A DNA stretch of 64,000 bases from Komagataeibacter nataicola (GTDB lineage: Bacteria > Pseudomonadota > Alphaproteobacteria > Acetobacterales > Acetobacteraceae), in the NCBI RefSeq assembly GCF_003207795.1, contig NZ_NIRT01000007.1:62001-126000 (forward strand). Direction: 5' to 3'. The first letter of the stretch is position 1, and every line of letters starts with the position of its first letter. Shown one piece after another: positions 9,118 to 39,305 of this stretch. The position numbers were made by a program, and so were the translations under genes. The notes under the pieces were generated by a model, which searched no databases, had not been told where the DNA came from, and worked only from the letters and a program-made list of their open reading frames with translations.

Positions 9118-9124
9118 TACAGGT

Positions 9125-9205
9125 AAACGTTTTTGGGTGCCGCCTTTTTTCAAAAAGGCGGCATTCCTCGAAGCTTTTTGAAAAAGCTTCACCAAAAACT
9201 TCTTT
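9125..9205 (+). repeat. Dispersed two-hairpin element, copy 1
   Basis: GCCGCCTTTTT/AAAAAGGCGGC hairpin, then AAGCTTTTT/AAAAAGCTT hairpin, flanked by outer arms (GTTTTTGGGTG and CACCAAAAAC). It lies between convergent eda and alkB. Orientation: GC-rich hairpin first on the plus strand. Confidence 0.9.
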
Positions 9206-9222
9206 ACGGTGAATAAGACTTC

Positions 9223-9879: not shown

Positions 9880-9935
9880 GCCGTGTCTTCCCCCCTGTGC
9901 CTTGCTGCGCACCGTAAGCGTGTATTTATTCCCAA

Positions 9936-10001
9936 GTGATGCCGGTTTTTTAAAAAGGCAGTGCTGTTCGAAGCTTTTTGAAAAGCCTTTCCACAAAAAA
10001 A
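9936..10001 (+). repeat. Dispersed two-hairpin element, copy 2 (degenerate)
   Basis: A decayed copy with shortened first hairpin (GCC...GGC around T/A runs) and second hairpin AAGCTTTTTGAAAAGCCTT, ending CCACAAAAAA. It lies between the tandem minus-strand genes for the DUF2076 protein and alkB. Same orientation as copy 1. Confidence 0.6.
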
Positions 10002-10049
10002 AGGGACACCCGCAACGGATGCCCCTTTCCCTGTCAGGACAGAGCTCAC

Positions 10050-10820: not shown

Positions 10821-10890
10821 CCTGTCTGTCCTGCCTTGGGCTGGGATACCGTATCCCTGCTGATGTGGTCCGTGCGGGCGCAATAAGCAA

Positions 10891-10951
10891 GGCCCCCACC
10901 TGCCATGCGGGGCCGTTTTGGGCGTATGGCACGCCCGACCTTCCGGTCGGG
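10891..10951 (+). promoter_or_regulatory. Two hairpins in the glyQ upstream region
   Basis: Hairpin 1: GGCCCC at 10891-10896 pairs with GGGGCC at 10909-10914, followed by GTTTT, which looks like a terminator or attenuator on the plus strand. Hairpin 2: CCCGACC at 10934-10940, loop TTCC, GGTCGGG at 10945-10951. Both precede glyQ by 80-140 bases. Confidence 0.45.
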
Positions 10952-10981
10952 GCCGCATAACGGTATGCTGTCCGGCGATTT

Positions 10982-10997
10982 TGCGCCAGATGGCGCA
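10982..10997. promoter_or_regulatory. Perfect 7-bp dyad (operator-like) before glyQ
   Basis: TGCGCCA, two bases (GA), then TGGCGCA: a perfect inverted repeat centred about 40 bases upstream of the glyQ ATG. This is the size of a dimeric-regulator operator, but no regulator can be named from the sequence. Confidence 0.4.
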
Positions 10998-11029
10998 GAC
11001 CTCTACCCGTTTAGCGGAGCATCTCGTTC

Positions 11030-11920
11030 ATGGACCCGGCCCCCGTGCCCCGATCACCCACCTCACCGCGCCCGCTGTCCTTTCAGGGGCTTATCCTGAA
11101 GCTGCACCAGTTCTGGTCCGATCAGGGCTGCGCCATCCTCCAGCCCTATGATACGGAGGTGGGCGCGGGCACGCTCTCGCCGCACACCACGCTGCGCGCC
11201 CTTGGCCCCAAGCCGTGGAAGGCCGCCTACGTGCAGCCGTGCCGCCGCCCGTCGGATGGCCGCTATGGCGAGAACCCCAATCGTCTGCAGCACTATTACC
11301 AGTATCAGGTGCTGCTCAAGCCCACGCCGGAGGAGAGCCAGAAGCTGCTGCTCGACAGCTACCGCGCCATCGGCATCGACCCGCTCGAGCACGACATCCG
11401 CTTCGTGGAAGATGACTGGGAAAACCCCACCATCGGCGCCTGGGGCCTGGGGTGGGAAGTGTGGTGCGATGGCATGGAGGTGACGCAGTTCACCTACTTC
11501 CAGCAGGTTGGCGGCATTCCCACCGTCATGCCCTCCACCGAACTGACCTACGGGCTGGAACGGCTGGCGATGTACGTGCAGGGAATCGAGAATGTCTATG
11601 ACCTCGATTTCAACGGCCAGGGCCTGAAATACGGCGATGTGTTCCTGCGCGCCGAGCAGGACTATTCGCGCCACAACTTCGAGGTGGCGGATGTGGAGAT
11701 GCTGCACCGGCACTTCATTGATGCCGAGCGCGAATCCACCGCCCTTGCCGAGGCCGGTCTGGCCCAGCCCGCCTATGACCAGTGCCTCAAGGCCAGCCAT
11801 CTGTTCAACCTGCTCGACGCGCGCGGCGTGATCAGCGTAAGCGAGCGCGCCGCCTATATCGGCCGCGTGCGCAACCTGGCCAGGCGCTGCTGTGAAACGT
11901 GGCTGGCGGGCGAGGAATAA
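11030..11920 (+). CDS. glyQ: Glycine-tRNA ligase alpha subunit
   Basis: Catalytic subunit of the heterotetrameric bacterial glycyl-tRNA synthetase. The 296 residues match the family. The core begins [19 protein letters not shown] and includes [35 protein letters not shown] and [19 protein letters not shown], all diagnostic of class II GlyQ. The ATG at 11030 has GGAG 10 bases upstream. It is followed 6 bases later by glyS, so the subunits are co-transcribed. Its upstream region contains three inverted repeats that may control expression. Confidence 0.97.
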
Positions 11921-11926
11921 GAGATC

Positions 11927-13987: not shown

Positions 13988-14001
13988 AATTTAAAAACAA
14001 T

Positions 14002-14081
14002 AAAAGTTTTTGGGTGCCGCCTTTTTTCAAAAAGGCGGCATTTTTTTAAGCTTTTTGAAAAAAGCTTTACCAAAAACTTTT
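14002..14081 (+). repeat. Dispersed two-hairpin element, copy 3
   Basis: Near-ideal 80-base copy: outer arms AAAAGTTTTTGG and CCAAAAACTTTT, GC-rich hairpin GCCGCCTTTTTTCAAAAAGG (continuing CGGC) and AT-rich hairpin AAGCTTTTTGAAAAAAGCTT. It lies between convergent glyS and the DUF3293 gene. GC hairpin first. Confidence 0.93.
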
Positions 14082-14095
14082 GTCTGATTCCCGGT

Positions 14096-14488
14096 TCAGG
14101 CTAGGTACACCAGCCGCGCGGGCCGGTTGCCATGCACCACCACCACGGCATTCTGCCGGAACCGCCGCGCGAGTACCAGCCCACGCGCAAGGTCCACCCG
14201 CACGCCATAAAGCGGCTCGGACCATCGACCCAGCCGCCCCGCCCCCAACGCATGGGGCAGCCCGTGCAGGGCGCGGGCCAGATGCGCCATCATGCGCCGG
14301 TTCCAGCCATCGGGCCGCAGCCTGCCACCAGGATTGCACGCACTGAGCAGAATAATATCGCCCGCAGGCACGCGGCCCCGCCAGCGCGGCCTGTGCCCAA
14401 TGCGAATGACCGGCAGGCCCGCCACATGATAGGTGCTGAGCCGGTAGGAACGGTGAATGGCAGGCGTGGGCGGCACGATGGCCGCCAT
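14096..14488 (-). CDS. DUF3293 domain protein
   Basis: 130 residues from the ATG at 14488. The sequence has the DUF3293 pattern as I recall it: a Tyr/Thr-containing start (YRLSTYHVAG), ILLSACNPGGR, then a Trp-Asn-Arg segment (WNRRMMAHL), a SEPLYGV segment and a C-terminal VLARRFRQNAVVVV. The function of the family is not known to me. Its start overlaps the rodA stop by one base (TGATG), so it is the last gene of the mre/mrd operon, translated by reinitiation. A longer in-frame start at 14542 lies inside rodA and is less likely. Confidence 0.75.
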   Translation of the reverse strand: MAAIVPPTPAIHRSYRLSTYHVAGLPVIRIGHRPRWRGRVPAGDIILLSACNPGGRLRPDGWNRRMMAHLARALHGLPHALGAGRLGRWSEPLYGVRVDLARGLVLARRFRQNAVVVVHGNRPARLVYLA

Positions 14489-15645
14489 CAGTCCTTTTCC
14501 CCCGGCGTGGTCTCGCCAAAGGTGGAATTGCGATGCACCCACGCCGACATGAGCAGCCCGAAGCCAAACATGACCATGAGCATGGCCGACCCGCCATAGG
14601 AGATGAGCGGCAGCGGCACGCCACCCACCGGGATTGCCCCCATCACCATGGACAGGTTGACCGCGCAGTAGAGGAAAAAGTTCATGGAAATGCCAAGCCC
14701 GAGCAGCCGCCCGAACTGGTTACGGCTGCGCATGGCAATCAGCATGCCGCCAAACACCAGCAGCAGCAGCATGCCGATCACGGTAATGCCGCCCACATAT
14801 CCCCATTCCTCTGCAATCATGGTGAAGATGAAGTCGGTCTGCTTTTCAGGCAGGAAGTTGAGCTGCCCCTGCGTGCCGCGCAGGTAGCCCTGCCCCCACA
14901 TGCCGCCCGACCCCAGCGCGATCTTGGACTGGATGATGTTGTAGCCCGCACCCAGCGGGTCGCTCTCGGGGTGGAGGAAGGTGGTCACCCGCGCCTTCTG
15001 GTAATCATGCAGATGGCCGTAGGCGATCCTGGCCAGAAAAGGCATGGGCAGCACCAGCAGCGCGATCTGCCACAGCCGCATGCCCGCGCCAAAGAACATG
15101 CTCGCCCCCACCGTGCCGATGATGACGGCGGTGCCCAGGTTAGGCTCCTTGAGCACAAGGGCGACCGGCAGCAGCACCATGAGCGCAGGCGGCACCAGCA
15201 TGAGCGGGTTGCCCATGCTGCGGTAACTGATCTTGTGAAACCACGAGGCCAGCATGAGCACCAGCGCGATCTTGGCCAGTTCCGAGGGCTGGACCTGCAT
15301 GCCGCCCAGCATCAGCCACCGCTCCGCCCCCTTGCCCACATGCCCCATGCGCAGCACCGCAACGAGCAGGATGAGCGAGAAGATGTAAAGCGGCCACGCC
15401 ATGCGCACCAAAATGGCCGGGCTCATCAATGCTATGCCCAGCATCATGACCAGACCAAAGCAGAAGCGGATGGATTGCGGCCCGGCAAACGGCCGCGACG
15501 TGCCGCCACCAGCCGAATACAGCGCCCCGTAGCCAATCACCGCCAGCGCGCAGATCAGCAGCACATACAGCCAGTTGACCTGCCACAGCTTGGTCAGGAT
15601 CTGGAAATTGGGTTCGGCGCGCAGCAGGCGCTTCTGGAATTTCAT
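14488..15645 (-). CDS. rodA: Rod-shape determining SEDS peptidoglycan polymerase RodA
   Basis: Integral membrane glycosyltransferase of the SEDS family that polymerises lipid II in the elongasome with its partner PBP2. The sequence is mostly hydrophobic, with about ten membrane helices. The family signature IPVGGVPLPLISYGGSA lies near the C-terminus, and WLMLGGMQVQPSELAKIALV in the middle. The start at 15645 (MKFQKRLLRAEP) is chosen because GGAG lies just upstream; an in-frame ATG at 15672 adds nine residues. The product is 385 residues. It lies directly downstream of mrdA and overlaps the next gene by one base. Confidence 0.95.
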   Translation of the reverse strand: MKFQKRLLRAEPNFQILTKLWQVNWLYVLLICALAVIGYGALYSAGGGTSRPFAGPQSIRFCFGLVMMLGIALMSPAILVRMAWPLYIFSLILLVAVLRMGHVGKGAERWLMLGGMQVQPSELAKIALVLMLASWFHKISYRSMGNPLMLVPPALMVLLPVALVLKEPNLGTAVIIGTVGASMFFGAGMRLWQIALLVLPMPFLARIAYGHLHDYQKARVTTFLHPESDPLGAGYNIIQSKIALGSGGMWGQGYLRGTQGQLNFLPEKQTDFIFTMIAEEWGYVGGITVIGMLLLLVFGGMLIAMRSRNQFGRLLGLGISMNFFLYCAVNLSMVMGAIPVGGVPLPLISYGGSAMLMVMFGFGLLMSAWVHRNSTFGETTPGEKD

Positions 15646-15693
15646 TCCATTCTCCACAACAGGCGCGGGCATGGCGGGGGCGCTTGGCCCGTA

Positions 15694-17613
15694 TCAGTCC
15701 ACCTCGGCCTGCGCGACTTCCTGGCCCGGCGGTTCGCGGTGGTTGACCGGATCACGGCGCAGGGTATCGGTCATGATATCACGCGCAAGGGGGGCCGCGA
15801 CATCAGCACCTGCATTGCCATGCTCGATCACCACCGCCGTGGCATAGCGCGGCGCGTCATAGGGCGCAAAGCAGATGAACAGCGCATGGGGCCGGTATTC
15901 CCACGGCAGGTTGGCAGAGTTGAAGTGCCCGCTCTCGCGCATGGCGCGCGAAACACGCCGCACCTGCGCCGAGCCGGTCTTGCCCGCCATCTGCACGCCC
16001 GGAATGTCCAGCCGCGCCTTGGGTGCGGTGCCGCCCTCCTCGTTCACCACGGCGTACATGCCCGCCCTGATGTCCGCGAAGAAATGTTCGGGCATGTCCA
16101 TGCCCGGCGCGCGGCCAAGGTCGGTCAGGTCCGCCATGCGGCCCGCCACCGAGCGGATCAGGTGCGGCTGCACGTTGCGCCCCGTGGCGATGCGCGAGGC
16201 ATAGGTGGCGAGTTGCAGTGGCGTCACCTGCACGAAACCCTGCCCGATGCCGCTGACAATGGTGTCGCCGCCATTCCAGTGGTGGCCATGTGCGCGCCGC
16301 CATGTGGGCGTGGGGATCAGCCCCTGGCGCACATGCGGCAGTTCGATCTCGGGCAGCCTGGCGCCAAGGCCAAACAGTTCTGACGTGGCCGCAATAGGGT
16401 CCATGCCGGTGCGGCGTGCGACTTCATAAAAGAACACGTCGCACGAATATTTCAGCCCCTGCCGCAGGTTGATCGTGCCATGCCCGTAGCGCGACCAGCA
16501 GTGAAAACGCGTGCCGCCCACATCGATATAGCCGGGGCAGGTAATGCGGTCGGACGGGGAGAGCGTGCCCGCGCGCAACGCCGCCATGGCCACGGCAGGC
16601 TTGAAGGTGGAGCCAGGTGGATACAGCCCCGACACCGCCTTGTTGATGAGCGGGGTCTGGCTGTTGTTGGTCCACTCGATCCACTGCGCCTGACTTACGC
16701 CGCTATCGAACAGCGAGGGGTCGAAGGAGGGGTTGCTGACCATGGCCAGCACCTCGCCATTGCGGCAGTCCATCACCACCGCGCTGGCCGACTGGTCGCC
16801 AATGCGGCCAAGCACCTGCTGCTGCAGGCCGCTATCAATGGTCAGCGCGATCTCGTCACCCGCGAGGCCGGGGTCACGGTCAAGCTCGGCCATGACGCGG
16901 CCCACCGCGTTGACCTCCATCTCCACCGAGCCCACCTGCCCGCGCAGGTTCAGGTCCTGTGTCTGCTCAATGCCCGAGCGCCCCACGCGCATGCCCGGCA
17001 GGGCGAGTTCGGCATTATGCACCACGTCCTTTTCGGCCGGGGGCGCGACATAGCCCACCACATGCGCCATGAGCGGGCCGAAGGGATAGACGCGCGTGGT
17101 GCCCACATCGATCAGCACGCCCGGCAGCGAGGGCATGTTGAGTTCCAGCCGCGCCATGTCATCCCATGACAGGAAATCACGCAGCATGATGGGGATGAAC
17201 CGCCGCTTGTGGCGCAGTTCATGCTCAATGCGCACGCTGTCGCGCGGCTCGAGCGGCACAAGCTGGGCAAAACGCTCGAGCGTGCCGTTGATGTCGCTGG
17301 TTTCCTCGGCCAGCAGCAGGGCGCGCCAGTTGATGCGGTTGGCCGCGACCGAGATGCCGAACCGGTCGGTAATGCGCCCGCGCGGCGGGGCGAAGAAGCG
17401 TTTGCTCAGGCGGTTGTTTTCCGCAAGCTTCGCATAATGGCTGCCGTTGAGAACCTGAAGCCCGTACAGACGTTCACCCAATGCACCGAGCACCGCGCCC
17501 TGGGCTGCCATGAGCAGCAGGGCGCGACGGGTAAAGACGCCACGGGAGGGATTCTTGCCCTCCTCCGGGCGCGACATGAGCCGGTTGCCGGATTTCTTCT
17601 TGCGTAACTTCAT
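15694..17613 (-). CDS. mrdA: Penicillin-binding protein 2 (elongation transpeptidase)
   Basis: Class B transpeptidase that cross-links peptidoglycan during side-wall growth, paired with RodA. The 639 residues include a Lys/Arg-rich cytoplasmic start, one membrane helix at about residues 29-47 (RALLLMAAQGAVLGALG), the PBP dimerisation domain, and a transpeptidase domain with PPGSTFKP (SxxK, catalytic Ser), KYSCDVFFYEV (the SxD form, which I recall as usual in PBP2) and AGKTGSAQV (KTG). A Pro/Glu-rich tail ends the protein. It lies 34 bases downstream of mreD and upstream of rodA. Confidence 0.96.
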   Translation of the reverse strand: MKLRKKKSGNRLMSRPEEGKNPSRGVFTRRALLLMAAQGAVLGALGERLYGLQVLNGSHYAKLAENNRLSKRFFAPPRGRITDRFGISVAANRINWRALLLAEETSDINGTLERFAQLVPLEPRDSVRIEHELRHKRRFIPIMLRDFLSWDDMARLELNMPSLPGVLIDVGTTRVYPFGPLMAHVVGYVAPPAEKDVVHNAELALPGMRVGRSGIEQTQDLNLRGQVGSVEMEVNAVGRVMAELDRDPGLAGDEIALTIDSGLQQQVLGRIGDQSASAVVMDCRNGEVLAMVSNPSFDPSLFDSGVSQAQWIEWTNNSQTPLINKAVSGLYPPGSTFKPAVAMAALRAGTLSPSDRITCPGYIDVGGTRFHCWSRYGHGTINLRQGLKYSCDVFFYEVARRTGMDPIAATSELFGLGARLPEIELPHVRQGLIPTPTWRRAHGHHWNGGDTIVSGIGQGFVQVTPLQLATYASRIATGRNVQPHLIRSVAGRMADLTDLGRAPGMDMPEHFFADIRAGMYAVVNEEGGTAPKARLDIPGVQMAGKTGSAQVRRVSRAMRESGHFNSANLPWEYRPHALFICFAPYDAPRYATAVVIEHGNAGADVAAPLARDIMTDTLRRDPVNHREPPGQEVAQAEVD

Positions 17614-17647
17614 TTACTCATCCGGCACGCAGGCCGTGGCACCGGCT

Positions 17648-18214
17648 TCAGGCGCGGTCCGCGTTATTGACGACAAAGCGGTAGGTCCAGACAAACCCCA
17701 CATACAGGACAGGGAAACTGCCAAAGGCCAGGACTGTCTCGAACACAAAGGGCAGGAACTCCACAATATGCAGCGCCAGCGCGCAGCACAGCACCCATTG
17801 TAGCGCCGTAACGCCCACCATCACCACGCCAAACACAAGCCACAGAACAAAAAAATTAACTCTTGCCAGCGTATAGCGCCCGGACAGGGCCACACCATGC
17901 ACGATCAGCATCATGAGCAGCATGACCCCCGCCGGGCCAAAACTCAGGATATCGGCCCAGATGCCCAGCACGAACACCGCAAGCGAGGGCATGAGCGCCG
18001 GCACGAACACCGACCACAGGAAAATGGTGGCCATGATGATGGCGGGCATGAGCTCGACCTGACCGGGCAGGTTGAGCGGCGCCGAAAGCACCAGCGTTGC
18101 AAAGAACACGAACAGGAACGGCACGCTGCTGCGCACGCCATGGTCGATACGGTAGCCCAGCCCCGAGCGGGGATGGATGCCGGGGCGGATCGGGGGTGGG
18201 GTGAAGGTCTTCAT
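17648..18214 (-). CDS. mreD: Rod shape-determining protein MreD
   Basis: Small integral membrane component of the MreBCD elongation complex. The product has 188 residues with several predicted helices (SSVPFLFVFFATLVLSA, AIIMATIFLWSVFVPAL, SLAVFVLGIWADILS and others). The segment LGIWADILSFGPAG is the family's characteristic half-conserved motif. Identification rests on this plus position between mreC and mrdA, because MreD sequences are variable. Its ATG overlaps the mreC stop by 4 bases, indicating translational coupling. Confidence 0.9.
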   Translation of the reverse strand: MKTFTPPPIRPGIHPRSGLGYRIDHGVRSSVPFLFVFFATLVLSAPLNLPGQVELMPAIIMATIFLWSVFVPALMPSLAVFVLGIWADILSFGPAGVMLLMMLIVHGVALSGRYTLARVNFFVLWLVFGVVMVGVTALQWVLCCALALHIVEFLPFVFETVLAFGSFPVLYVGFVWTYRFVVNNADRA

Positions 18215-19113
18215 CCGTGCAGGCCCTGATCGGAGTGCGTGGGCAGGGGCATCGTCCCCCCGCCTGAAGGCAGCGGCACGCGGCCCGGCGCATCGGGCGG
18301 CACCACGCTATCTTCATAATCGAACACGCGCAGCATATCGACATGATCGAGATCAGCCGCGGGCACCACCACCGGCTGGCCGGGGCGCAGGTAGTGCACA
18401 TGCCCCACCGGCAGACCGGCGGGCAGGCTCTCGATCTCGCCATTGGTCACGACACGCTCGCCCTCGATCGGTACATTATCCTGCGGGTAGAAGATAATGC
18501 GCGGCAGGGCCGAGTTGTCACCCGCCATGATGGCCGCCGCATGGCTTGATTCCAGCGTGACCGGCAGGCGGCTTGACGAATCGGTAATGAGCAGCACGCG
18601 CGCCGAGCGCCGCCCCACCTCGGTCACGCGCCCCACCAGCCCCGCGCCATCAAGGGCGATGCCGCCCTTGCGCACCGCCGTATCAGGGTTGAGGGACAGC
18701 AGCACCGCGCGCGCGTAAAGCCCGCTGGTGTCGCGCACCACCCGCCCGCTGACAAAAGTGGGCGCGTTATCGGGAATCCAGTGCAGGTTGGCCTTCAGCG
18801 TCGCGTTTTCATCAGCCAGCGCTGCCGCCACGTCATACCAGTGGCGCAGCGATGTGTTCTCGGCGCGCAGGCGGATGTTCTCGGCTTCGAGGTTGCGGAT
18901 ATCCTGCAGGTTGCCCGACACCCAGCGCAGTTTTTCCTGCGGCCAGGCCACCAGCCCGTAGGCGGGGGCGAGCAGGTCGGCGGTGTTCATGCGCAGCTTT
19001 TCGATCAGGCCACGATCGGCCTTGCCAAGCAGGATGACACCGCAGGCCACGAGAATGAGGGCAGGCAGCACAAGCTTGCCCAATGCCTGGCGGAACTGAA
19101 TGGAGACAGGCAT
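18211..19113 (-). CDS. mreC: Cell shape-determining protein MreC
   Basis: Bitopic inner-membrane protein that links MreB filaments to the periplasmic synthesis enzymes. The product is 300 residues from the ATG at 19113; a GTG one codon earlier is also possible. There is one N-terminal membrane helix (LVLPALILVACGVILLG, about residues 15-31), a coiled coil (LRAENTSLRHWYD and following) and a periplasmic beta-rich domain with GLVGRVTEVGRRSARVLLITD, the best conserved MreC block. The C-terminus is Pro/Ser-rich. It is 134 bases after mreB and overlaps mreD by 4 bases. Confidence 0.95.
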   Translation of the reverse strand: MPVSIQFRQALGKLVLPALILVACGVILLGKADRGLIEKLRMNTADLLAPAYGLVAWPQEKLRWVSGNLQDIRNLEAENIRLRAENTSLRHWYDVAAALADENATLKANLHWIPDNAPTFVSGRVVRDTSGLYARAVLLSLNPDTAVRKGGIALDGAGLVGRVTEVGRRSARVLLITDSSSRLPVTLESSHAAAIMAGDNSALPRIIFYPQDNVPIEGERVVTNGEIESLPAGLPVGHVHYLRPGQPVVVPAADLDHVDMLRVFDYEDSVVPPDAPGRVPLPSGGGTMPLPTHSDQGLHG

Positions 19114-19250
19114 CACGCACGCACCCCACGCACGGCGGCGGCGTCGTGCCGGTCGGATCGTTCACTCCTGCCTGCTCGCCGGACCTGCATCGTCCTGCGT
19201 CTCCCCCCTCGGCACGCCGCCCTGCCTTGCGCCGTGGGCGGCGACCGTCA

Positions 19251-20610
<1,360 letters not shown>

Positions 20611-21174
20611 ATGAAGACTTCATCGCCCCGCATGACCATTCGCCCGGCACTGCTGCTTGCGGCGACAATGTGCCTCGGCCTTGGCGCATGCGAGGACACG
20701 CGCGACCCCGGCCAGCGCGCCATTGGCGGCGGGCTGCTTGGCGCGGGCGGCGGCGCGCTGATCGGCGGACTGGCGGGCGGCGGGCAGGGTGCCGCGATTG
20801 GCGCGCTGGCCGGAGCGGCGGGGGGCGCTGCCGTCGGCGCCGCCACCACGCCACGCAACCGCCCCCGTGGCGAGGCCCCTTCCACCGTATGCGCGGGGGG
20901 CCGGGTGCTGCCGCCAGGCTATGGGCCGCAGAGCTGCCCCGAGGCCGCGGGCCAGCGCGCGGGTTATGGCAGCCAGCGCGGTTACGCCAGCCCCAGCTAC
21001 CCCCAGCAGGGCGGGTATGGGCAAGGGGCCTATGGCCAGGGTGGATACAGCCAGGGCGGATATGACCAGAGCGGCTATTACGGCCAGCAGCAGGGTGGCT
21101 ATGCCCAGCCCTATGGCTACGGGCAGGAAGGCAGCAGCTACCCGCAGGGCTACGAAGGCGAAGGCGGCTACTGA
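20611..21174 (+). CDS. Glycine-zipper lipoprotein with Tyr/Gly/Gln repeat tail
   Basis: 187 residues. The signal peptide has a lipobox (LGLGAC, Cys27), so it is probably an outer-membrane or periplasmic lipoprotein. Residues about 38-77 are a glycine zipper (AIGGGLLGAGGGALIGGLAG), a pattern found in outer-membrane proteins such as the 17-kDa antigen type. The second half is a low-complexity series of short Gly-Tyr-Gln units (QGGYGQGAYGQGGY and similar). The single Cys pair (STVCAGG, QSCPEA) could form a disulfide. Function is not known. An upstream GGAG lies at about 20593. A strong hairpin follows the stop. Confidence 0.8.
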   Translation: MKTSSPRMTIRPALLLAATMCLGLGACEDTRDPGQRAIGGGLLGAGGGALIGGLAGGGQGAAIGALAGAAGGAAVGAATTPRNRPRGEAPSTVCAGGRVLPPGYGPQSCPEAAGQRAGYGSQRGYASPSYPQQGGYGQGAYGQGGYSQGGYDQSGYYGQQQGGYAQPYGYGQEGSSYPQGYEGEGGY

Positions 21175-21186
21175 GCCGCCCCGAAA

Positions 21187-21229
21187 CACAACACCCCGCC
21201 GCGTTACAACATCACGGCGGGGTGTTGTG
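21187..21229 (+). terminator. Perfect 15-bp hairpin after lipoprotein gene
   Basis: CACAACACCCCGCCG at 21187-21201 pairs perfectly with CGGCGGGGTGTTGTG at 21215-21229, with a 13-base loop. There is no T-run, so it may act as a Rho-dependent end or mRNA-stabilising structure. Confidence 0.6.
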
Positions 21230-21250
21230 GCGGCATCGGCCACCTGTAAT

Positions 21251-21333
21251 GAAAGTCTCGGGCTGCTGCCTTTAATTTAATAAAGGCAGCGTTTTACCAG
21301 GCTTCTTTAAAAAAAGCCTCACCAAAACCTTTT
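21251..21333 (+). repeat. Dispersed two-hairpin element, copy 4 (with compensatory changes)
   Basis: A diverged copy whose stems stay paired: GCTGCCTTTA/TAAAGGCAGC and AGGCTTCTTT/AAAAAGCCT, then CACCAAAACCTTTT. It lies between the convergent lipoprotein gene and leuA. GC hairpin first. Confidence 0.8.
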
Positions 21334-21339
21334 CTTTAC

Positions 21340-22914
21340 TCAGGCCTCGAGGGCGGCAGGCTCGGCCCGGTCGCGCTTGACCAGCAGCTTGTTGAGCGCA
21401 TGCACGTAGGCCCGCACGGCCGAGACCAGCGTATCGGCATCGGCACCCTGCCCATCGACCAGCTTGCCGTCTTCTTCCAGCCGCACGGAAGTACGGGCCT
21501 GCGCGTCGCTGCCCTCGGTCACGGCGCCGACGGAATACAGCTGCAGCGTCGCATCATGCGGCACGATGGCGCGGATGGCGTTGAACGCGGCATCAACCGG
21601 CCCCTGCCCTTCCGCATGGCCTTCGCGGCGCGCGCCATCGACTTCCAGCACCAGATCGGCGGTGGCCGGGCGGCGCGAGCCTGCGGTTACATCGAGCGAG
21701 ATGAAGCGGATGCGGGCATGGTCGCGCACTTCATCATCCACCAGTGCGACCAGATCCTCGTCGTAAATGACCTTCTTGCGGTCGGCCAGATCCTTGAAGC
21801 GCGAGAACGCCTCGTTGAACTGCGCTTCTTCCAGCGCGTCGTAGCCCATCGCCTTGAGCTTGTCGCGGAAGGCCGCACGCCCCGAATGCTTGCCCAGCAC
21901 CAGCGAGGAGCGGGTCCAGCCCACGCTCTCGGGCGTCATGATCTCGTAGGTGGCGGCGTTCTTCAGGATGCCATCCTGATGGATGCCACTTTCATGCGCG
22001 AACGCATTGCGGCCCACGATGGCCTTGTTGGGCTGCACGTCAAAGCCGGTGATGGTGGCCAGCATGCGCGAGGTGCGCAGCAGGCGCTCGGTGTGGATGC
22101 CGGTGGTAAAGGGCAGCACGTCATGGCGCGTGCGCAGCACCATGATGATCTCTTCAAGAGCCGCGTTGCCCGCGCGCTCGCCAATGCCGTTGATGGTGCA
22201 TTCCACCTGGCGCGCGCCCGCCTTCAGCGCCGCGATGGTGTTGGCAACACCGAGGCCCAGGTCATTATGGTTGTGGGTGGAGAAGATGACGCCATCGGCA
22301 CCCGGCACGCGGGCGCGCAGGTCAGCAAAAATCCGGGCCATGTCCTCGGGCGTGGAATAACCCACCGTGTCGGGGATGTTGATGGTGGTCGCGCCTGCGC
22401 GGATGGCGGTCTCGACACAGCGGCACAGAAAGTCGGGCTCGGTGCGCGAGCCGTCCTCGGCGGACCATTCCACGTCATCGGTGAACTGGCGGGCGGCGCG
22501 GTTGCCGGCCTCGATCACTTCCAGCACCGTTTCAGGCTCCATGCGCAGCTTGTATTTCATGTGCAGCGGCGAGGTGGAGATGAAGTTGTGGATGCGCCCG
22601 CGCTTTGCAGGTTTGATCGCCTCGCCCGCGCTGGCGATGTCGTTCTTGCCGCCGCTGCGTGCGAGCGCGCACACCACGGCGTTTTTCACCTTCTGGGCAA
22701 TCTGGTGAACGCTGTCGAAATCCCCTTTCGAAGCCACGGGGAAACCCGCCTCCATCACGTCCACGCCGAGTTCTTCCAGCGCTTCGGCCATGCGCAGCTT
22801 CTCGGCGAGGTTCATGGAAAAGCCGGGCGACTGCTCGCCATCACGCAGTGTCGTGTCAAAAATGATGACGCGGTTGGCGTCGATACGGCCAAAGGAAGGG
22901 TGGTCGATGCTCAT
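21340..22914 (-). CDS. leuA: 2-isopropylmalate synthase
   Basis: Condenses acetyl-CoA with 2-ketoisovalerate, the first committed step of leucine synthesis. The product has 524 residues from the ATG at 22914 (MSIDHPSFGR). An in-frame ATG at 23013 would add 33 residues unlike the family. The HMGL-like TIM barrel begins IIFDTTLRDGEQSPG (metal Asp and catalytic Arg); STHNHNDLGLGVANT and ECTINGIGERAGN are further signatures. After the linker, residues from about 390 form the LeuA allosteric domain that binds leucine (QLYSVGAVTEGSDAQA). It stands alone, convergent with the lipoprotein gene. Confidence 0.96.
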   Translation of the reverse strand: MSIDHPSFGRIDANRVIIFDTTLRDGEQSPGFSMNLAEKLRMAEALEELGVDVMEAGFPVASKGDFDSVHQIAQKVKNAVVCALARSGGKNDIASAGEAIKPAKRGRIHNFISTSPLHMKYKLRMEPETVLEVIEAGNRAARQFTDDVEWSAEDGSRTEPDFLCRCVETAIRAGATTINIPDTVGYSTPEDMARIFADLRARVPGADGVIFSTHNHNDLGLGVANTIAALKAGARQVECTINGIGERAGNAALEEIIMVLRTRHDVLPFTTGIHTERLLRTSRMLATITGFDVQPNKAIVGRNAFAHESGIHQDGILKNAATYEIMTPESVGWTRSSLVLGKHSGRAAFRDKLKAMGYDALEEAQFNEAFSRFKDLADRKKVIYDEDLVALVDDEVRDHARIRFISLDVTAGSRRPATADLVLEVDGARREGHAEGQGPVDAAFNAIRAIVPHDATLQLYSVGAVTEGSDAQARTSVRLEEDGKLVDGQGADADTLVSAVRAYVHALNKLLVKRDRAEPAALEA

Positions 22915-23211
22915 GGTAATAACCTCGGACTTGGTCCTGCATGGGACGGGCGACGGCACGCGCATGCGGCCTGTCTGTTCGTGTTCGCGCGGCTGCATGG
23001 CCGCTCCGATCAATCCCCTGGGCGCGCCGGCACGCAGGCCGGCCCTGATCGCTCAGGGGCGGATAAGTCGAAGACGAAGGAGCCCCGTCGCGGCACATGC
23101 GCGCGCGGAAAGGCGCGCGTATGCGCCCGATCCGATCCCCACGATGTGCGCTATCGTTACCATGCCGGGCACAATACAGCCCCGCAACGTGATTGCAACC
23201 CGAAAAGCGCC
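22915..23211. promoter_or_regulatory. leuA upstream region
   Basis: Gene-free. A strong GC hairpin can form at about 23097-23120 (CGCGCG, six bases, CGCGCG). I looked for a leader peptide rich in Leu codons and found none, so a ribosome-mediated attenuator is not supported. Confidence 0.35.
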
Positions 23212-24138
23212 CTAGCCCGTGGCATGGGTGACCATGCTGTCAGTGGCGAAATAACGGTCGATGGCCTGCACCATGGCGCCCGCCACCACCATGCGGTGGG
23301 CCGCCTGCCTGAGCGCTGCTTCATCCATGTGGTTGGACATGAAGCCCATCTCCACCAGCACGGAAGGAATATCGGCCGATTTGAGCACCACGAAGGAAGC
23401 ATGCCGCGAGGGGTGTTGCAGCAGGCCGATGCGCGGACGGAACGAGGAGACGATGCTGCTGGCCATGTGGGCGGCGCCGTGGCGGGTTTCCTCGGTCACG
23501 AGGCTTGCCAGGATTTCCTGCACCTCGGGCGAGTCCGCATGCACGTGCGGGCCGCCATAGCGGTCAGCGCTGTTCTCGGTGCGCGCGAGCATGGCCGTCT
23601 GCCGGTCCGACGCCTTTGATGAGAGCGTATAGACACTCGCCCCACGCACCGCGCGGTTGGTCAGCGCATCGGCATGCATGGAAATGAACAGCGAGGCCTT
23701 GTGGCTGTGCGCGATGTCCACCCGCCCCTCAAGCGGGATGAAGCGGTCATCGGCGCGCGTCATGGCCACGCGGTAGCGGCCACTGGCCTCGAGCTGGCGC
23801 TGCAGCTCGCTGGCCGCCGCCTCGGCCACATGCTTTTCATAGGTGCCGGAAATGCCGATGGCGCCGGGGTCCTTGCCGCCATGGCCGGGGTCGAGCATGA
23901 CCAGCGGCTTTGGCGGCGCTGCACGCCCCACGATGGCGGGCGCATGCAGCGGGTGGGCGGCGTGACGGGCGGCAGCGGCCGCATGCACGTGGGCGGGCAC
24001 CTGGGGCGCCACCCGCGCCAGCGCGCTGGCGGGCAGCAACACGCCCAGCCCCGCCACAACAGTGCGGCGCGGCAGCACGGGGTCGGGCCTGCGCCCCGGC
24101 GGGCCCGCCTTGTTTCCATCAGGCCAGCCAGTGGTCAT
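23212..24138 (-). CDS. N-acetylmuramoyl-L-alanine amidase (Amidase_3), exported
   Basis: Zinc amidase that splits the amide between MurNAc and the stem peptide, used in daughter-cell separation or wall turnover. The product is about 308 residues. A twin-arginine-like signal (PRRTVVAGLGVLLPASALA, about residues 22-40) suggests Tat export, as known for E. coli AmiC. The catalytic domain shows MLDPGHGGKDPG (zinc His), SLFISMHAD (zinc His) and PSVLVEMGFMSN (catalytic Glu), the Amidase_3 order. No AMIN domain is seen. The start at 24138 is tentative; 24156 is also in frame. It diverges from rne. Confidence 0.9.
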   Translation of the reverse strand: MTTGWPDGNKAGPPGRRPDPVLPRRTVVAGLGVLLPASALARVAPQVPAHVHAAAAARHAAHPLHAPAIVGRAAPPKPLVMLDPGHGGKDPGAIGISGTYEKHVAEAAASELQRQLEASGRYRVAMTRADDRFIPLEGRVDIAHSHKASLFISMHADALTNRAVRGASVYTLSSKASDRQTAMLARTENSADRYGGPHVHADSPEVQEILASLVTEETRHGAAHMASSIVSSFRPRIGLLQHPSRHASFVVLKSADIPSVLVEMGFMSNHMDEAALRQAAHRMVVAGAMVQAIDRYFATDSMVTHATG

Positions 24139-24802
24139 GCATCGGGTTCCGGTCAAGACAGTTGCGGGATCATGTATCTTTTTTCCTTACCACCATCCGC
24201 GCCCTTCGTCAGCGGGATAAACGCAAGCCCCTTGCAGGAAGGGCCGCATTGCGTCATGCTGCCCAGCCGTGATGGACCGCGCCCGGTCCGGCTGCCCTGC
24301 TGGCATGCCTGATAGGGCGAGATGCCAGCAGGCATGACTTAAACTCCATCCGGCATGCATCATGCATGCGCGACATGCGCTTACCGGTACGCTTACCGGC
24401 CACGTTACGGCGTGGGGGCACATGCCACGCACGACCTGAGGCAGCCGCACCGGTGTTCCCCATCGACAGGAAACCGGATGGCATACCAGTCGATACGGAA
24501 GGTTCCGCCCCGGCAATCAGGCCGGGCCGCGCCCTCCCCAGCCAGGACAGAGGATGGATTGGACACCACGCGGACCCATTGCGCACATGCGATGGCACCA
24601 TGCCCGAACACGGACGGCACAAGCATGCCGCATCCGGTCGTGCCGCATGGCCTGTCCGCCCGCGCAGGGCGCGGTGGTCTCCCGTCCGGTTTCGGTCACG
24701 GCTTTTTCAATCATGCTTTTGTCCGCTCCCCCGCCCTTCCTGCCGCCACGACTCGCGCGCAGCCCGGATGCCGGAGCGTGACACACCGGAGTGCGCCTAT
24801 TT
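24139..24802. promoter_or_regulatory. Long divergent intergenic region amidase / rne
   Basis: About 660 bases with no gene I can support; short open frames here lack ribosome sites and family-like sequence. The length suits a long rne 5' leader, which in enterobacteria carries autoregulatory structure, but no specific structure is identified here. Confidence 0.4.
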
Positions 24803-27754
24803 ATGAGCAAACGCATGCTGATCGACACGACCCACGCGGAAGAAACCCGCGTGGTCGTGATGGATGGTAACCACCTTGAGGATTATGATGTCGAAGCCGC
24901 TTCCAAGAAGCAGCTCAAGGGCAACATCTACCTTGCGAAGGTTATCCGTGTAGAACCCAGCCTTCAGGCTGCGTTCGTGGATTATGGCGGCAACCGCCAC
25001 GGCTTTCTCGCCTTCAGCGAAATCCACCCCGATTATTACCAGATCCCCGTAGCCGACCGCGAAAAGCTGCTCGCGCTGCAGGAGGAGGAACGCCGCGCGG
25101 AAGAAGAACGCCGCGCGCGTGATGACGAGGAAGAGGACGCCCCCCGCGCCGAGGACGAGGCCGAAACCCCCGCGGGCGACGAAGACGACGAGCCCGAAAC
25201 CGTGGGCGGCGAGAACGACACCGGCGATGAGGCCCAGGCCCAGCGCCGCATCGCCCGCTTCCTGCGCAACTACAAGATTCAGGAAGTCATCCGCCGCCGC
25301 CAGATCCTGCTCGTGCAGGTGGTCAAGGAAGAGCGCGGCAACAAGGGTGCGGCTCTGACCACCTACGTATCGCTTGCAGGGCGGTACTGCGTGCTCATGC
25401 CCAACTCGCTGCGTGGAGGCGGCGTTTCGCGCAAGATCACCTCGGTAGCCGACCGCCGCCGCCTGCGCGACATCATTACCGAGCTGTCCATCCCGCGCGG
25501 CATGGCCATGATCGTGCGCACTGCCGGCGCCCAGCGCCCGCGCGCCGAGATCATGCGCGACTGCGAATACCTGCTGCGCCTGTGGGATGATATCCGCCAG
25601 CACACGCTGGAATCCGTCGCCCCCGCCCTGATCTATGAGGAAGCGAGCCTGATCAAGCGCGCCATCCGCGATATCTACACGCGCGAGGTCAGCGAGATCC
25701 TGATCGATGGCGAGCCGGGCTGGAAGTCGGCGCGCGAGTTCATGCGCATGCTCATGCCCCAGAACGCGCAGAAGGTGCGCCTGTGGCAGGACCACGAGCA
25801 GACCCTGTTCTCGCACTACAAGGTGGAGGGGCTGCTTGATTCCATGCTCTCGCCTTCCGTGCAGCTCAAGTCGGGTGGCTATCTGGTCATCAACCAGACC
25901 GAAGCGCTGGTGGCGATCGACGTGAACTCGGGCCGCGCCACGCGTGAGCGCAACATCGAGGAAACGGCGCTGCGCACCAACCTCGAAGCCGCCGAGGAAG
26001 TCGCCCGCCAGCTGCGCCTGCGTGACCTGGCCGGCCTGATCGTGATCGACTTCATCGACATGGAAAGCCGCAAGCATAACGGCATGGTCGAGCGGAAGCT
26101 GAAAGATGCCCTGCGCACCGACCGCGCGCGCATCCAGGTGGGCCAGATCTCGCATTTCGGCCTGCTGGAAATGTCGCGCCAGCGCCTGCGCCCCTCCATT
26201 GCCGAATCCGCCTTCATGCCCTGCCCGCACTGCCAGGGCACCGGCATCGTGCGCGGGATCGAAAGCTCGTCGCTGCACGTGCTGCGCGCGATCGAGGACG
26301 AAGGCATGCAGCGCAAGGCCGCGGAAATTACCGTGCAGGTCGCACCCGAGGTCGCCTTCTACATCCTCAACAACAAGCGCACCTGGCTTTCGGAAATCGA
26401 GACGCGGCACAAGATGCAGGTCGTGTTCGCACCCGATGCCACACTACAGCCGCCCGAGTGCAAGATCGAGCGCGTGCGCCAGCAGACGGCCCGCTTCGAG
26501 GCCCCTGCCGCCATTGCACACGCCCCGGCCGAAAGCAGCCACGTGCGCGAGATCCAGATCCAGGCCGAGCCGCCGGTAGCCGCCGAAGCGACCCCGGAAG
26601 CCCCGGCCAGCACGGAAGAGGACGAGGATATCGCATCGGGCACCGACCACCGCCGCCGCCGGCGCCGTCGTCGCCGTCGTGGCTCCAGCGCCACCACCGC
26701 GCCCGAGCAGACGAGCGAGACGCAGCAGCCTGCAGCCGAGGAACCGGCACCCGTGCCCGCTCCCGCGCCGCGTGAAGTCTATCGTGGTCCCACCCCGGCT
26801 GACCCGTATGGTGACCCGATCATCGACATCTTTGACGTGATCGAGCAGACCACGGCACCTGCCGAGATCGTGGAAGAGGTTGTGGAAGCCGAACCTGCGG
26901 TCGTTGCTGTGGCGGAAGAAGAGGAAGCGCCCAGGCCGCGCCGCCGCCGCCGCACGCGCCGCCGCACGCCGGTGGAAACGGAAGCCACCACCGAGGCCCC
27001 GCAGGCCGAGGCGGAAGCCGAAGTGAGCGCACCCGTGGCCGAAGAAGCACCGGTGGAGAAAGCCGAAGCCCCCCCTGCCGCACCGGCAGTAGAGGAAGCC
27101 GTGGCGGAACCCGTGGAGGAAGCGCCCAAGCCGCGCCGCCGCCGCGCCAGCACGGCCACCACCACGCGCAGCAGCCGCAGCCGCACCAAGGCCGCCAGCA
27201 CGCCGGAAGAAAAGCCGGCTGAGGCAGCAGCACCCGACGCTGCGGAAGAAGCAGCCCCTGCCGAGGAAGCCGCACCCGCCAAACCCGCGCGCAAGCGTGC
27301 GGCAAGCCGGAGCACGGGCACGACGACGGCCACCCCGCGCCGCCGCACCACCCGCAAGACGGCTGCCAAGGCGGATGAGGCCACTGAGGCTGCGGCTGAA
27401 GCTCCCGTGAAAGCGGAAGTGAAAGCCGAAGCCCCGGCGACGGAAGAGGCTCCCAAGCGCCGCCGTGCCCCGGCACGCCGCAAGAAGGCCGAGCCTGCCG
27501 CCACCGAGGCAGCGGAAGCCCCGGCGGAAGCGGTAGCCGAGACGGCGGAAGCCGCACCGGCAAAGCCCGCGCCGCGCAAGCGTGCCACAACCCGCAAGGC
27601 CGCCACCACAACGACGGCCACGGCCACCCGCACGCGCCGCCGCAAGAAGGCGGAAGACGCAGCGGAACCGGCTACGGCCGAGGCGGCGGAACCTGCCGCG
27701 CCGACCGAAGCGGAAGCGGCTCCCCGCCGCCGCACGGGCTGGTGGAAGCGCTGA
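24803..27754 (+). CDS. rne: Ribonuclease E
   Basis: Endoribonuclease that starts mRNA decay and processes rRNA and tRNA; usually the scaffold of the degradosome. The product is 983 residues from MSKRMLIDTTHAEE at 24803. The S1 domain starts at about residue 35 but is interrupted by a Glu/Asp/Arg-rich insertion (about residues 93-148), known from alphaproteobacterial enzymes. The DNase I-like catalytic part contains ALVAIDVNSGRATRERN and LIVIDFIDM with the two metal Asp residues. The Zn-link is CPHCQG. After about residue 600 the protein is a low-complexity Ala/Glu/Pro/Arg tail with Arg-rich patches, probably for RNA and partner binding. A clear intrinsic terminator follows. Confidence 0.96.
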   Translation: MSKRMLIDTTHAEETRVVVMDGNHLEDYDVEAASKKQLKGNIYLAKVIRVEPSLQAAFVDYGGNRHGFLAFSEIHPDYYQIPVADREKLLALQEEERRAEEERRARDDEEEDAPRAEDEAETPAGDEDDEPETVGGENDTGDEAQAQRRIARFLRNYKIQEVIRRRQILLVQVVKEERGNKGAALTTYVSLAGRYCVLMPNSLRGGGVSRKITSVADRRRLRDIITELSIPRGMAMIVRTAGAQRPRAEIMRDCEYLLRLWDDIRQHTLESVAPALIYEEASLIKRAIRDIYTREVSEILIDGEPGWKSAREFMRMLMPQNAQKVRLWQDHEQTLFSHYKVEGLLDSMLSPSVQLKSGGYLVINQTEALVAIDVNSGRATRERNIEETALRTNLEAAEEVARQLRLRDLAGLIVIDFIDMESRKHNGMVERKLKDALRTDRARIQVGQISHFGLLEMSRQRLRPSIAESAFMPCPHCQGTGIVRGIESSSLHVLRAIEDEGMQRKAAEITVQVAPEVAFYILNNKRTWLSEIETRHKMQVVFAPDATLQPPECKIERVRQQTARFEAPAAIAHAPAESSHVREIQIQAEPPVAAEATPEAPASTEEDEDIASGTDHRRRRRRRRRRGSSATTAPEQTSETQQPAAEEPAPVPAPAPREVYRGPTPADPYGDPIIDIFDVIEQTTAPAEIVEEVVEAEPAVVAVAEEEEAPRPRRRRRTRRRTPVETEATTEAPQAEAEAEVSAPVAEEAPVEKAEAPPAAPAVEEAVAEPVEEAPKPRRRRASTATTTRSSRSRTKAASTPEEKPAEAAAPDAAEEAAPAEEAAPAKPARKRAASRSTGTTTATPRRRTTRKTAAKADEATEAAAEAPVKAEVKAEAPATEEAPKRRRAPARRKKAEPAATEAAEAPAEAVAETAEAAPAKPAPRKRATTRKAATTTTATATRTRRRKKAEDAAEPATAEAAEPAAPTEAEAAPRRRTGWWKR

Positions 27755-27778
27755 TTACAGCGTGACTGGCTGAAAGGT

Positions 27779-27812
27779 AAAAAACCTGCCTTCGCAAGAA
27801 GGCAGGTTTTTT
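27779..27812 (+). terminator. Rho-independent terminator of rne
   Basis: AAAAAACCTGCCTT at 27779-27792 pairs with AAGGCAGGTTTTTT at 27799-27812 around the loop CGCAAG. The right arm ends in a T-run, giving a classic intrinsic terminator 25 bases after the rne stop. Confidence 0.92.
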
Positions 27813-27856
27813 ATTGCCTGCAGAGCTTCTGATTTCCGATTTATATTAAAATATTA

Positions 27857-27934
27857 AACGTTTTTGGGTGTCGCCTTTTTTCAAAAAGGCGGCGTCTTCT
27901 GGAGCTTTTCGGAAAAAGCTTCACCAAAAACTGC
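27857..27934 (+). repeat. Dispersed two-hairpin element, copy 5
   Basis: GTCGCCTTTTT/AAAAAGGCGGC (one T-G wobble), then GAGCTTTTC/GAAAAAGCTTC, with outer arms AAACGTTTTTGGGTG and CACCAAAAAC. It lies between convergent rne and the HerA-like gene, just after the rne terminator. GC hairpin first. Confidence 0.88.
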
Positions 27935-27935
27935 T

Positions 27936-29438
27936 TTATAATTTATCGCCCTCGGGCAGGGCGGGTGCGGTTTCCCAGCCGGGACCGATAACGGCGGCAC
28001 TACGGCGGCCCAGCCCGTCATGGCGGAGCACGATCATGTTCTGCTCCTCGAGATAGGCAAGCTGCCGCCGGGCGCGGCCAAGCGAATGGGTGCCGTAAGT
28101 GCGCGCGATCAGGCTGTCGGATGGGCAGGGCTCCCCATGCAGCGCCGCGCGTGCAATGAGCAGAAAGATGCCCTGCATGTCATCAGGCAGCACGGCCGCC
28201 ATCTGCTCGGCCTGCCGCCAGTCCTCGCTTTCCACGGTGGCGGCATCCACGCCTGCGCGGGCGACTGCAAGCAGGCGGCGAAAGCGCGGCATGTCCAGCG
28301 CGTCACGCCCCATGCCTTCGATGCGGCAGCGCACCAGAAAATCCTGATACAGCACATGCACCGGGCGAAAACCCGCATCCTCATCGCGCAATATGTCGGT
28401 CAGGATATCGATAAAGCGCAGCCTCAGCGCCGCCGCATCCACCGGCGGGGCTTCTGGTGCCGCGGTTTCGGCCTCCAGCGTCGCGGTCTCGGCGTGGGCT
28501 GCAAGCTGCGAGAGGATATCGGGCGGCGGGCTGATATGGCGCGGCGCGCGCGCGGGCAGTTCGCGCTCGGGCACCGGGGTCAGGATCAGTTCACGGATCT
28601 CATCACCCGCAGGCACCGGCTCAAAGGGCATGAGCGTGGGGCCAGCCGAGCGGCTTTCTGTCTCGACCGGACCGATCTTGACGGCAAGCGGCCTGCGGCA
28701 CACGGCGGGGCCGAGGGCCACGAAATAGCCGCGCTCAAGGTCACGGAAACTCTCTGCCTGCCGCCGCTCCATGCCCAACAGGTCGGCGGCGCGCATCATG
28801 TCGATATCAAGGAAGGTACGCCCCATGAGGAAGTTCGAGGCCTCGGCCGCGACATTCTTGGCAAGCTTGGCCAGGCGCTGCGTTGCGATAACCCCTGCCA
28901 GCCCGCGCTTGCGGCCACGGCACATAAGGTTGGTCATGGCGCCGAGCGAGGCGCGACGTGCCTCATCCGACACCTCGCCTGCCGCAGCAGGGGCAAAAAG
29001 CTGGGCTTCATCCACCACCACCAGCACGGGGTACCAGTAATCGCGCGGCACCTCGAACATGCCGCCGAGGAAGGCTGCGGCGCGGCGCATCTGCACATCC
29101 GCGTCCACGCCCTCAAGGTTCAGGATGACCGAGGCGCGGTGCATGCGCATGCGCTCGCCCGCCGCCTGCAGGGCCGCCTCGGTATGCTCGGCGGCATCAA
29201 TGACCAGATGGCCATAGCGCTCGGCCAGGCTGACGAAGTCGCCCTCAGGGTCGATGATGGCCTGCTGCACCATGCGTGCCGACTGCTCGAGCAGGCGGCG
29301 CAGCAGGTGCGACTTGCCCGAACCGGAATTGCCCTGCACCAGAAGGCGGGTGGAAAGCAGTTCAGCCAGGTCCATCGTCACGGGGCCATCGCCCGCCACG
29401 GCCCCGCGCCGCTCGCCAATCGTGATTGCAACACTCAT
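27936..29438 (-). CDS. HerA-like / DUF87 ATP-binding protein
   Basis: 500-residue P-loop ATPase related to the HerA-FtsK superfamily. The N-terminal beta-rich lead (MSVAITIGERRGAVAG) is followed by Walker A QGNSGSGKSHLLRR (about residues 34-47), Walker B VLVVVDEAQLF (about residue 140) and the sensor-like TNLMCRGRKRGLAGVIATQR block. No membrane segment. Residues from about 300 on are Pro/Glu-rich and lead to a C-terminal winged-helix-like part (HSLGRARRQLAYLEEQNMI). No NurA nuclease gene is adjacent, so a role in DNA translocation is only inferred. Its ATG overlaps the flavoprotein stop by 4 bases. Confidence 0.8.
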   Translation of the reverse strand: MSVAITIGERRGAVAGDGPVTMDLAELLSTRLLVQGNSGSGKSHLLRRLLEQSARMVQQAIIDPEGDFVSLAERYGHLVIDAAEHTEAALQAAGERMRMHRASVILNLEGVDADVQMRRAAAFLGGMFEVPRDYWYPVLVVVDEAQLFAPAAAGEVSDEARRASLGAMTNLMCRGRKRGLAGVIATQRLAKLAKNVAAEASNFLMGRTFLDIDMMRAADLLGMERRQAESFRDLERGYFVALGPAVCRRPLAVKIGPVETESRSAGPTLMPFEPVPAGDEIRELILTPVPERELPARAPRHISPPPDILSQLAAHAETATLEAETAAPEAPPVDAAALRLRFIDILTDILRDEDAGFRPVHVLYQDFLVRCRIEGMGRDALDMPRFRRLLAVARAGVDAATVESEDWRQAEQMAAVLPDDMQGIFLLIARAALHGEPCPSDSLIARTYGTHSLGRARRQLAYLEEQNMIVLRHDGLGRRSAAVIGPGWETAPALPEGDKL

Positions 29439-39277: not shown

Positions 39278-39281
39278 ATAG

Positions 39282-39297
39282 TAAAAACTTTTACTTT
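39282..39297. repeat. Possible remnant of the dispersed element
   Basis: Between the priA stop and the next convergent stop is only a short palindrome, GTAAAAACTTTTAC, which resembles the fused ends of the dispersed element (AAAAAC and ACTTTT arms). This could be chance. Confidence 0.3.
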
Positions 39298-39305
39298 TTA
39301 ATACG

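Follow-up and report, generated by a model that had tools for sequence, protein, structure and literature searches.

A dispersed, orientation-changing palindromic repeat at gene 3′ ends in Komagataeibacter: a putative bidirectional terminator

The repeat copy beside leuA and its family

The window (the whole 64,000-nucleotide stretch of Komagataeibacter nataicola DNA analyzed here) contains a palindromic repeat copy, copy 4, between two convergent genes. In the list below and throughout, G000 is the genome from which the window derives and G001–G018 are 18 further Komagataeibacter genomes, giving a genus set of 19. The locus comprises the following features.

20611–21174, plus strand: gene convergent with leuA, its translation a glycine/glutamine/tyrosine-rich protein with a lipoprotein-like start
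21187–21230, plus strand: GC-rich hairpin in the sequence after this gene, separate from the repeat
21250–21338, plus strand: copy 4, model-defined extent (cmsearch, 65.9 bits)
21251–21262, plus strand: left arm of the copy 4 closing stem, 4 of 12 pairs mismatched
21265–21290, plus strand: copy 4 hairpin 1, GCTGCC...GGCAGC, predicted fold −16.1 kcal/mol
21299–21319, plus strand: copy 4 hairpin 2, AGGCTT...AAGCCT, −5.7 kcal/mol (−9.7 in the G018 orthologue)
21324–21335, plus strand: right arm of the closing stem
21340–23013, minus strand: leuA, 2-isopropylmalate synthase, extent of the open reading frame (NCBIfam NF002087, 840 bits against a cut-off of 729)

The leuA stop codon lies 1 base from copy 4. 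The product of the 20611–21174 gene has only a sub-cut-off NCBIfam match, to the YiaD glycine zipper (18.9 bits, cut-off 175), and its C-terminal repeat region varies between species.

The hairpin 1 arms of copy 4 (GCTGCC 21265–21270, GGCAGC 21285–21290) and its hairpin 2 arms (AGGCTT 21299–21304, AAGCCT 21314–21319) correspond to GCCGCC/GGCGGC and AAGCTT/AAGCTT in the family consensus, taken from an alignment of 13 copies. One pair is altered in each: 21267 T–21288 A replaces C-G, and 21300 G–21318 C replaces A-T. The original prediction, that both hairpins carry paired changes with pairing kept, is thus borne out against the 13-copy consensus. It had also placed a T-G wobble in copy 5 at a comparable site; the wobble is present in hairpin 1 of the copy at 27855, at the neighboring pair rather than the identical one (17-38 versus 18-37). 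Copy 4 hairpin 2 has lost one pair at its base (C.C), and GTTTT lies directly 3′ of hairpin 1 (21291–21295). The match of copy 4 to the family model (65.9 bits, E 2.8e-17) exceeds chance, although copy 4 is itself one of the 13 model-building sequences. Among the eight full window copies its score is the lowest (others 74.9–105.4 bits). Its fold z-score, −3.59, is the weakest of the four copies for which shuffle z-scores were computed, on the element strand only (three sibling copies: −5.04, −6.48, and −7.85).

The consensus of the family is 86 positions long and is predicted to form three helices, in which a closing stem, AAAAGTTTTTGG...CCAAAAACTTTT, encloses the GC-rich hairpin 1 and the AT-rich hairpin 2. 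The closing-stem arms make 12 pairs and are, in effect, terminal inverted repeats. Folded with 15-base flanks, the eight window copies have predicted energies of −21.0 to −44.9 kcal/mol on both strands. The seven copies besides copy 4 are listed here.

9124–9208, plus strand: family copy, 94.9 bits
14001–14086, plus strand: near-consensus copy, 105.4 bits, fold z −7.85
27855–27940, plus strand: copy 5, with the T-G wobble, 88.7 bits
36832–36917, minus strand: lies in a divergent gap, unlike the other seven, 90.7 bits
44714–44799, minus strand: family copy, 97.9 bits
56827–56910, minus strand: degraded copy, 74.9 bits
59332–59417, minus strand: family copy, oppositely oriented at this site in several further species, 102.7 bits

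A degenerate remnant of the repeat lies at 9936–9989 (19.6 bits), where the G004 orthologue is a longer match. Short variants of about 55–65 nt, with closing-arm sequence and one hairpin only, occur elsewhere (L058:2928-2987, L123:1401-1460, L142:11720-11778, and others). Over the window, 4227 Rfam models gave no match to the repeat above gathering score, the sole match being a tRNA at 6104–6176.

The three-helix covariance model finds at least 150 non-overlapping places in G000. A rescan of the window and of the stretches around these places yielded 171 non-overlapping matches, including short ones; pair counts were based on the 142 copies that have 58 or more of the 86 consensus letters, and 29 rows were left out. 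Every one of the 19 genus genomes has matches, from 50 to at least 112 each. Outside the genus one of 21 genomes matched, a member of the bacterial family with 24 matches (best E 1.3e-10), and in a draw of 200 genomes of that family 27 match at E 1e-6, spanning 14 of 102 genera. Matches number at least 150 in Acetobacter musti, 139 in A. garciniae, 42 in an Acetobacter MAG, 2 in A. orleanensis, 8, 6, and 6 in three Gluconobacter, 142 in Novacetimonas hansenii, and at least 150 in each of four other genomes; these totals are matches and not copies, because an element this symmetric can be matched twice, once per strand; in A. orleanensis the two matches are a single element. Full elements outside the genus reach 106 bits in Acetobacter musti and 99 bits in Gluconobacter oxydans. 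Among the matches listed, the exact 32-base right half is found in Komagataeibacter, Novacetimonas, Gluconacetobacter entanii, and some Acetobacter and Gluconobacter. The same list includes two gut Bacteroidota MAGs (L373, Alistipes; L393, Rikenellaceae), which have a common local context and lack the left half in the 90 bases preceding the right half. Carriage by plasmid or phage was considered as well; with one copy as query, no match was obtained at E 1e-5.

LeuA orthologues are present in all 19 genomes. Model matches downstream of leuA occur in G000 (65.9 bits), G018 (67.7 bits), G004 (42.5 bits), and weakly in G007 (18.8 bits, E 0.009); a 66.7-bit copy in G008 lies farther from leuA, in a different flank. 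By eye, the site holds a hairpin 1 remnant below model threshold in G003, G014, and G015, and a degenerate element-like stretch, also below threshold, in G013; G011 is masked, and the remaining nine genomes have no element. By alignment seven species share the site, four of which lack hairpin 2. Predicted hairpin 1 folds there are −16.1 (G000), −15.7 (G018), −17.6 (G007), and −10.3 kcal/mol (G003), and are weak in G004, G015, and G014 (−5.5, −6.4, and −5.2 kcal/mol). GCTGCC/GGCAGC is common to G000 and G007, and the hairpin 1 change is therefore old; of the species that have the site, only G000 carries the hairpin 2 change. The family is a dispersed palindromic repeat of acetic acid bacteria, about 86 bp in length, and copy 4 is best read as an old member in partial decay.

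Covariation, inversion, and replacement of copies

The original prediction proposed a covariation test on an alignment of all genomic copies. In a shuffle version of this test on the 142 copies, which share ancestry and whose alignments were fitted to the model structure so that counts lean towards it, both hairpins exceed every one of 500 shuffles: 39 of 50 double changes in hairpin 1 keep Watson-Crick pairing (shuffle mean 12.1, maximum 22), as do 14 of 19 in hairpin 2 (mean 2.9, maximum 9). The closing stem is weak, with 37 of 62 kept (mean 25.1, maximum 37). A control with slid partners gave 6–14, 1–4, and 8–20 for hairpin 1, hairpin 2, and the closing stem. One subfamily, GTGTCG...CGAC with the tail ATAAT, gives many changes at pair 17-38.

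Orthologous copies in G000 and G018 provide a more independent contrast. Forty-eight of the 171 matches could be mapped; 32 sites have the same orientation, 8 the opposite, 6 no element, and 2 are too far apart. The 28 pairs that are full on both sides, compared with 300 shuffles, contain 14 kept double changes in hairpin 1 (mean 3.6, maximum 8), 8 of 8 in hairpin 2 (mean 1.1, maximum 4), and 4 in the closing stem (mean 2.5, maximum 7). Among same-orientation pairs with 80% identity or more, 16 in all, events are few and show no clear excess (2, 1, and 1 kept, against shuffle means of 0.9, 0.2, and 0.7). The covariation signal therefore comes mostly from diverged, flipped, or replaced copies.

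Decay by itself might account for copy 4, both of its paired changes being inherited subfamily variants plus chance. The hairpin 1 pair variant in G007 at the leuA site and in 8 of the 142 copies agrees with this, as do the visible GTGTCG/CGAC subfamily, which inflates counts, and the clean orthologue pairs; the hairpin 2 double change private to G000 and the family-level covariation above all shuffles oppose it, and we consider decay alone doubtful.

Orientation also changes between genomes. By script, 8 of 40 G000/G018 sites have the element in opposite orientations, 6 of them clear in alignments. At 39278–39305 of the window, a convergent gap of 28 nt in G000 holds only AGTAAAAACTTTTAC, apparently a remnant, the deletion scar of an element. 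Fourteen of the 18 other genus genomes have the element at this site (by eye), in minus orientation in G004, G005, G008, G014, G015, and G018, and in plus orientation in G002, G003, G006, G007, G009, G010, G011, and G013; G016 has a remnant, and G001, G012, and G017 have no element. Close relatives share the immediate flanks (AACAGATAAAAG...CTTTTACTTCTTTA in most) and have the sequence between them reversed. On a tree built from the concatenated flanks of four genes, with some nodes weakly supported and three genomes uncoded at 59332, parsimony gives 5 orientation changes in 14 genomes at 39278–39305 and 3 in 16 at 59332, against shuffled-label means of 4.8 and 2.8.

Inversion is visible within hairpin 1 as well. 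Its core, CTTTTTTCAAAAAG, occurs in 50 of 142 copies and the exact inversion in 5, with the one-step intermediates in 1 and 0; among 18 two-difference variants of the core, 5 are the exact inversion and the others occur once each. The exact inversion of the hairpin 2 loop occurs in 0 copies against 53. At L046:1401, two adjacent hairpin 2 pairs are changed by transversion on both arms; of these changes, the G018 orthologue has only those of the right arm.

A clean inversion in place is not established as the sole cause of flips, as the inner sequences of flipped pairs differ: at the same flip site G003 and G007 have GCAGCC/GGCTGC and G014 and G018 have GCCGCC/GGCGGC. A different copy may therefore have replaced the resident one by way of the arms that they share. 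Wholesale turnover of copies was rejected as a general rule, given that 23 same-orientation orthologous pairs are on average 82% identical compared with 74% for paralogues (flanks 92%); for five flipped pairs the difference is small, 78% versus 75% for paralogues. Separately, the GCAGCC/GGCTGC variant of hairpin 1, a paired transversion, is found at two sites of G003 (L192:7925-8010 and L190:9056-9141), which suggests spread or conversion between copies.

The paired changes might accordingly be mutational in origin, each arising as a single event when DNA replication switches template or inverts sequence at the palindrome. Selection on RNA would then be slight or absent, and the fold would maintain itself at the DNA level. 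Exact core inversions almost without intermediates, opposite orientations at one site, orientation changes as numerous at two sites as under shuffled labels, and the double transversion at L046:1401 with its half-changed orthologue all fit, and there is a precedent in the excerpted text of PMC8794818, which describes how mutation by template switching produces compensatory changes and loop inversions in RNA genes. The repeat resembles those genes in its paired changes and in-place hairpin loop inversions, and differs in that whole 86-bp elements are also inverted at one site. However, double changes are mostly transitions and many cells are singly changed, as stepwise change expects, and a mutational origin alone predicts neither the excess of G-T over A-C in hairpin 1 nor the placement at 3′ ends described below; as the whole explanation it seems to us tenable only at low odds.

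The claim that the fold of copy 4 is conserved by selection survives in part. For the family, both hairpins covary beyond all shuffles in the 142 copies and in the 28 orthologous pairs; for copy 4, the decay of the site in sister species, the age of its hairpin 1 change, the 16 clean pairs, and local inversion count against it. We rejected covariation alone as grounds for selection, since DNA-level processes also yield paired changes, and the paired changes of copy 4 are insufficient alone because such repeats can flip or re-match themselves at the DNA level.

Position at gene ends and a candidate shared 3′ end

In 530 kb of contiguous sequence (the window and 466 kb of G018), elements occupy 39 of 74 convergent gaps, 26 of 291 tandem gaps, and 3 of 76 divergent gaps, and none lies inside a called gene; genes were called by a simple codon-usage script trained on the window, and single gene ends may be off. 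Occupancy for 400 kb of G018, 66 kb of G018, and the window was 27/57, 5/8, and 7/9 for convergent gaps, 23/218, 3/38, and 0/35 for tandem gaps, and 1/58, 1/9, and 1/9 for divergent gaps, the G018 count including all matches at E 0.001, short ones among them (60, of which 39 full). The 171 matches in G000 divide into 87 convergent, 60 tandem, 6 divergent, 2 inside genes, and 16 at stretch edges, and the 142 full copies into 78, 50, 5, 1, and 8, respectively. Median distance to the stop codon in G000 is 16 nt in convergent gaps (174 ends) and 15 nt for the upstream gene in tandem gaps (60), where the median distance to the downstream start is 133 nt. Of the 60 elements in tandem gaps, 43 are oriented with the genes (one-sided p 5e-4). 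As the element lies just after genes, mostly where two meet end to end, it probably ends the messages of both.

Over the flanks of 92 copies, A makes up 47–72% at −10 to −5 and T 57–68% at +4 to +6. Wobble pairs are unevenly distributed on the element strand. In hairpin 1, G-T outnumbers A-C 109:50 in the copies, which share ancestry, and 39:12 in orthologue contrasts; hairpin 2 has a weak reversed bias (G-T to A-C 26:46 and 9:19), and the closing stem has more A-C than G-T in copies (157:74), with no clear bias in contrasts (22:29). It is as if the RNA of each strand used the hairpin that it meets first, although a mutation bias linked to transcription could produce wobble of the same sign.

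From position, flanks, and fold we infer a putative bidirectional terminator or mRNA 3′ end, a reading that we favor by a modest margin of confidence. The genes to its left and right would share the element as their 3′ end. A transcript entering from either side would fold the hairpin that it meets first and afterwards the complete branched hairpin, which on either strand would be preceded by an A-rich tract and followed by a T-rich one. The branched hairpin with its flanks would end transcription, block 3′ exonucleases, or both. The paired changes of copy 4 are consistent with selection that keeps pairing in working copies; repair of the palindrome at the DNA level by template switching may help or partly produce the paired changes, and may also flip the element.

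Several observations run counter to termination. A consensus terminator scan of 9000–28100 flagged none of the four elements there, and the closing stem, with whose A tracts the T tracts partly pair, is AT-rich, unlike a textbook terminator. The 20611–21174 gene has its own GC-rich hairpin at 21187–21230, and hairpin 2 has been lost in four of the seven species with the leuA site. Three of the 68 occupied gaps are divergent, and wobble in the closing stem lacks a consistent bias.

Relation to known repeats and terminators

MITEs are non-autonomous elements with terminal inverted repeats. The repeat might be a transposon of this kind that tolerates or targets terminators and 3′ ends, its fold serving transposition and not the host. 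It is like MITEs in its inverted ends, high copy number, and patchy spread across genera (Acetobacter and Gluconobacter have full elements close to the consensus), and some species have element-free sites. Evidence of a target duplication is not convincing in the 92 copies examined: among the flanking direct repeats none stands out, the one 4-mer signal (9 versus 3.4, maximum 7) arising among 81 length and offset settings. Many Komagataeibacter species also have elements at matching sites, and RAYT is absent from the 19 genus genomes; overall, MITE-like transposition appears improbable to us.

A REP/RAYT system was rejected, as no RAYT gene (Y1_Tnp, PF01797) was found in any of the 19 genus genomes; the control search was positive in 5 of 14. 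The excerpted text of PMC3733652 describes REP elements as short, extragenic, high-copy palindromes, as the repeat is, and gives hypotheses of a role in termination and mRNA stabilization; however, REPs are there single palindromes of 20–40 bp with a GTAG or CGTC tag, compared with about 86 bp, two hairpins, and a closing stem here. Neither tag is present at the ends of the 86-position consensus.

Reportedly, each Bacillus cereus terminator is an individual sequence. In contrast, here a single repeated three-helix element occupies roughly half of the convergent gaps that were examined. The two resemble each other in their hairpins and paired changes: in the excerpted text of PMC5381666, some B. 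cereus bidirectional terminators are common to convergent genes and undergo compensatory evolution, with G-U as the most frequent intermediate. No earlier description of the element was found in the open-licence literature, including excerpts of PMC6528568, PMC3733652, and PMC4686929.

The alternatives weighed above (decay, mutational origin, transposition) are compatible with the shared 3′-end reading, so the likelihoods attached to them are not shares of a whole. In Neisseria and Pasteurellaceae, inverted pairs of DNA uptake sequences act as terminators; there, as for the repeat, one motif is reused behind many genes, and the repeat is much longer. More speculatively, a spreading, orientation-flipping, lineage-specific element may have become the standard means by which acetic acid bacteria end genes in both directions, each strand being served by one hairpin. 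Its pairing would be renewed by template switching or inversion together with selection, so that covariation would overstate selection at the RNA level.

If the shared 3′-end reading is true, one repeat gives a common 3′ end to about half of the convergent gene pairs examined, and would be a ready-made engineering part for an industrially used genus. Its copies in the hundreds, its series of orthologues, and its visible inversions make the repeat a natural test bed for the question of what share of nucleic-acid covariation comes from selection and what share from template switching.
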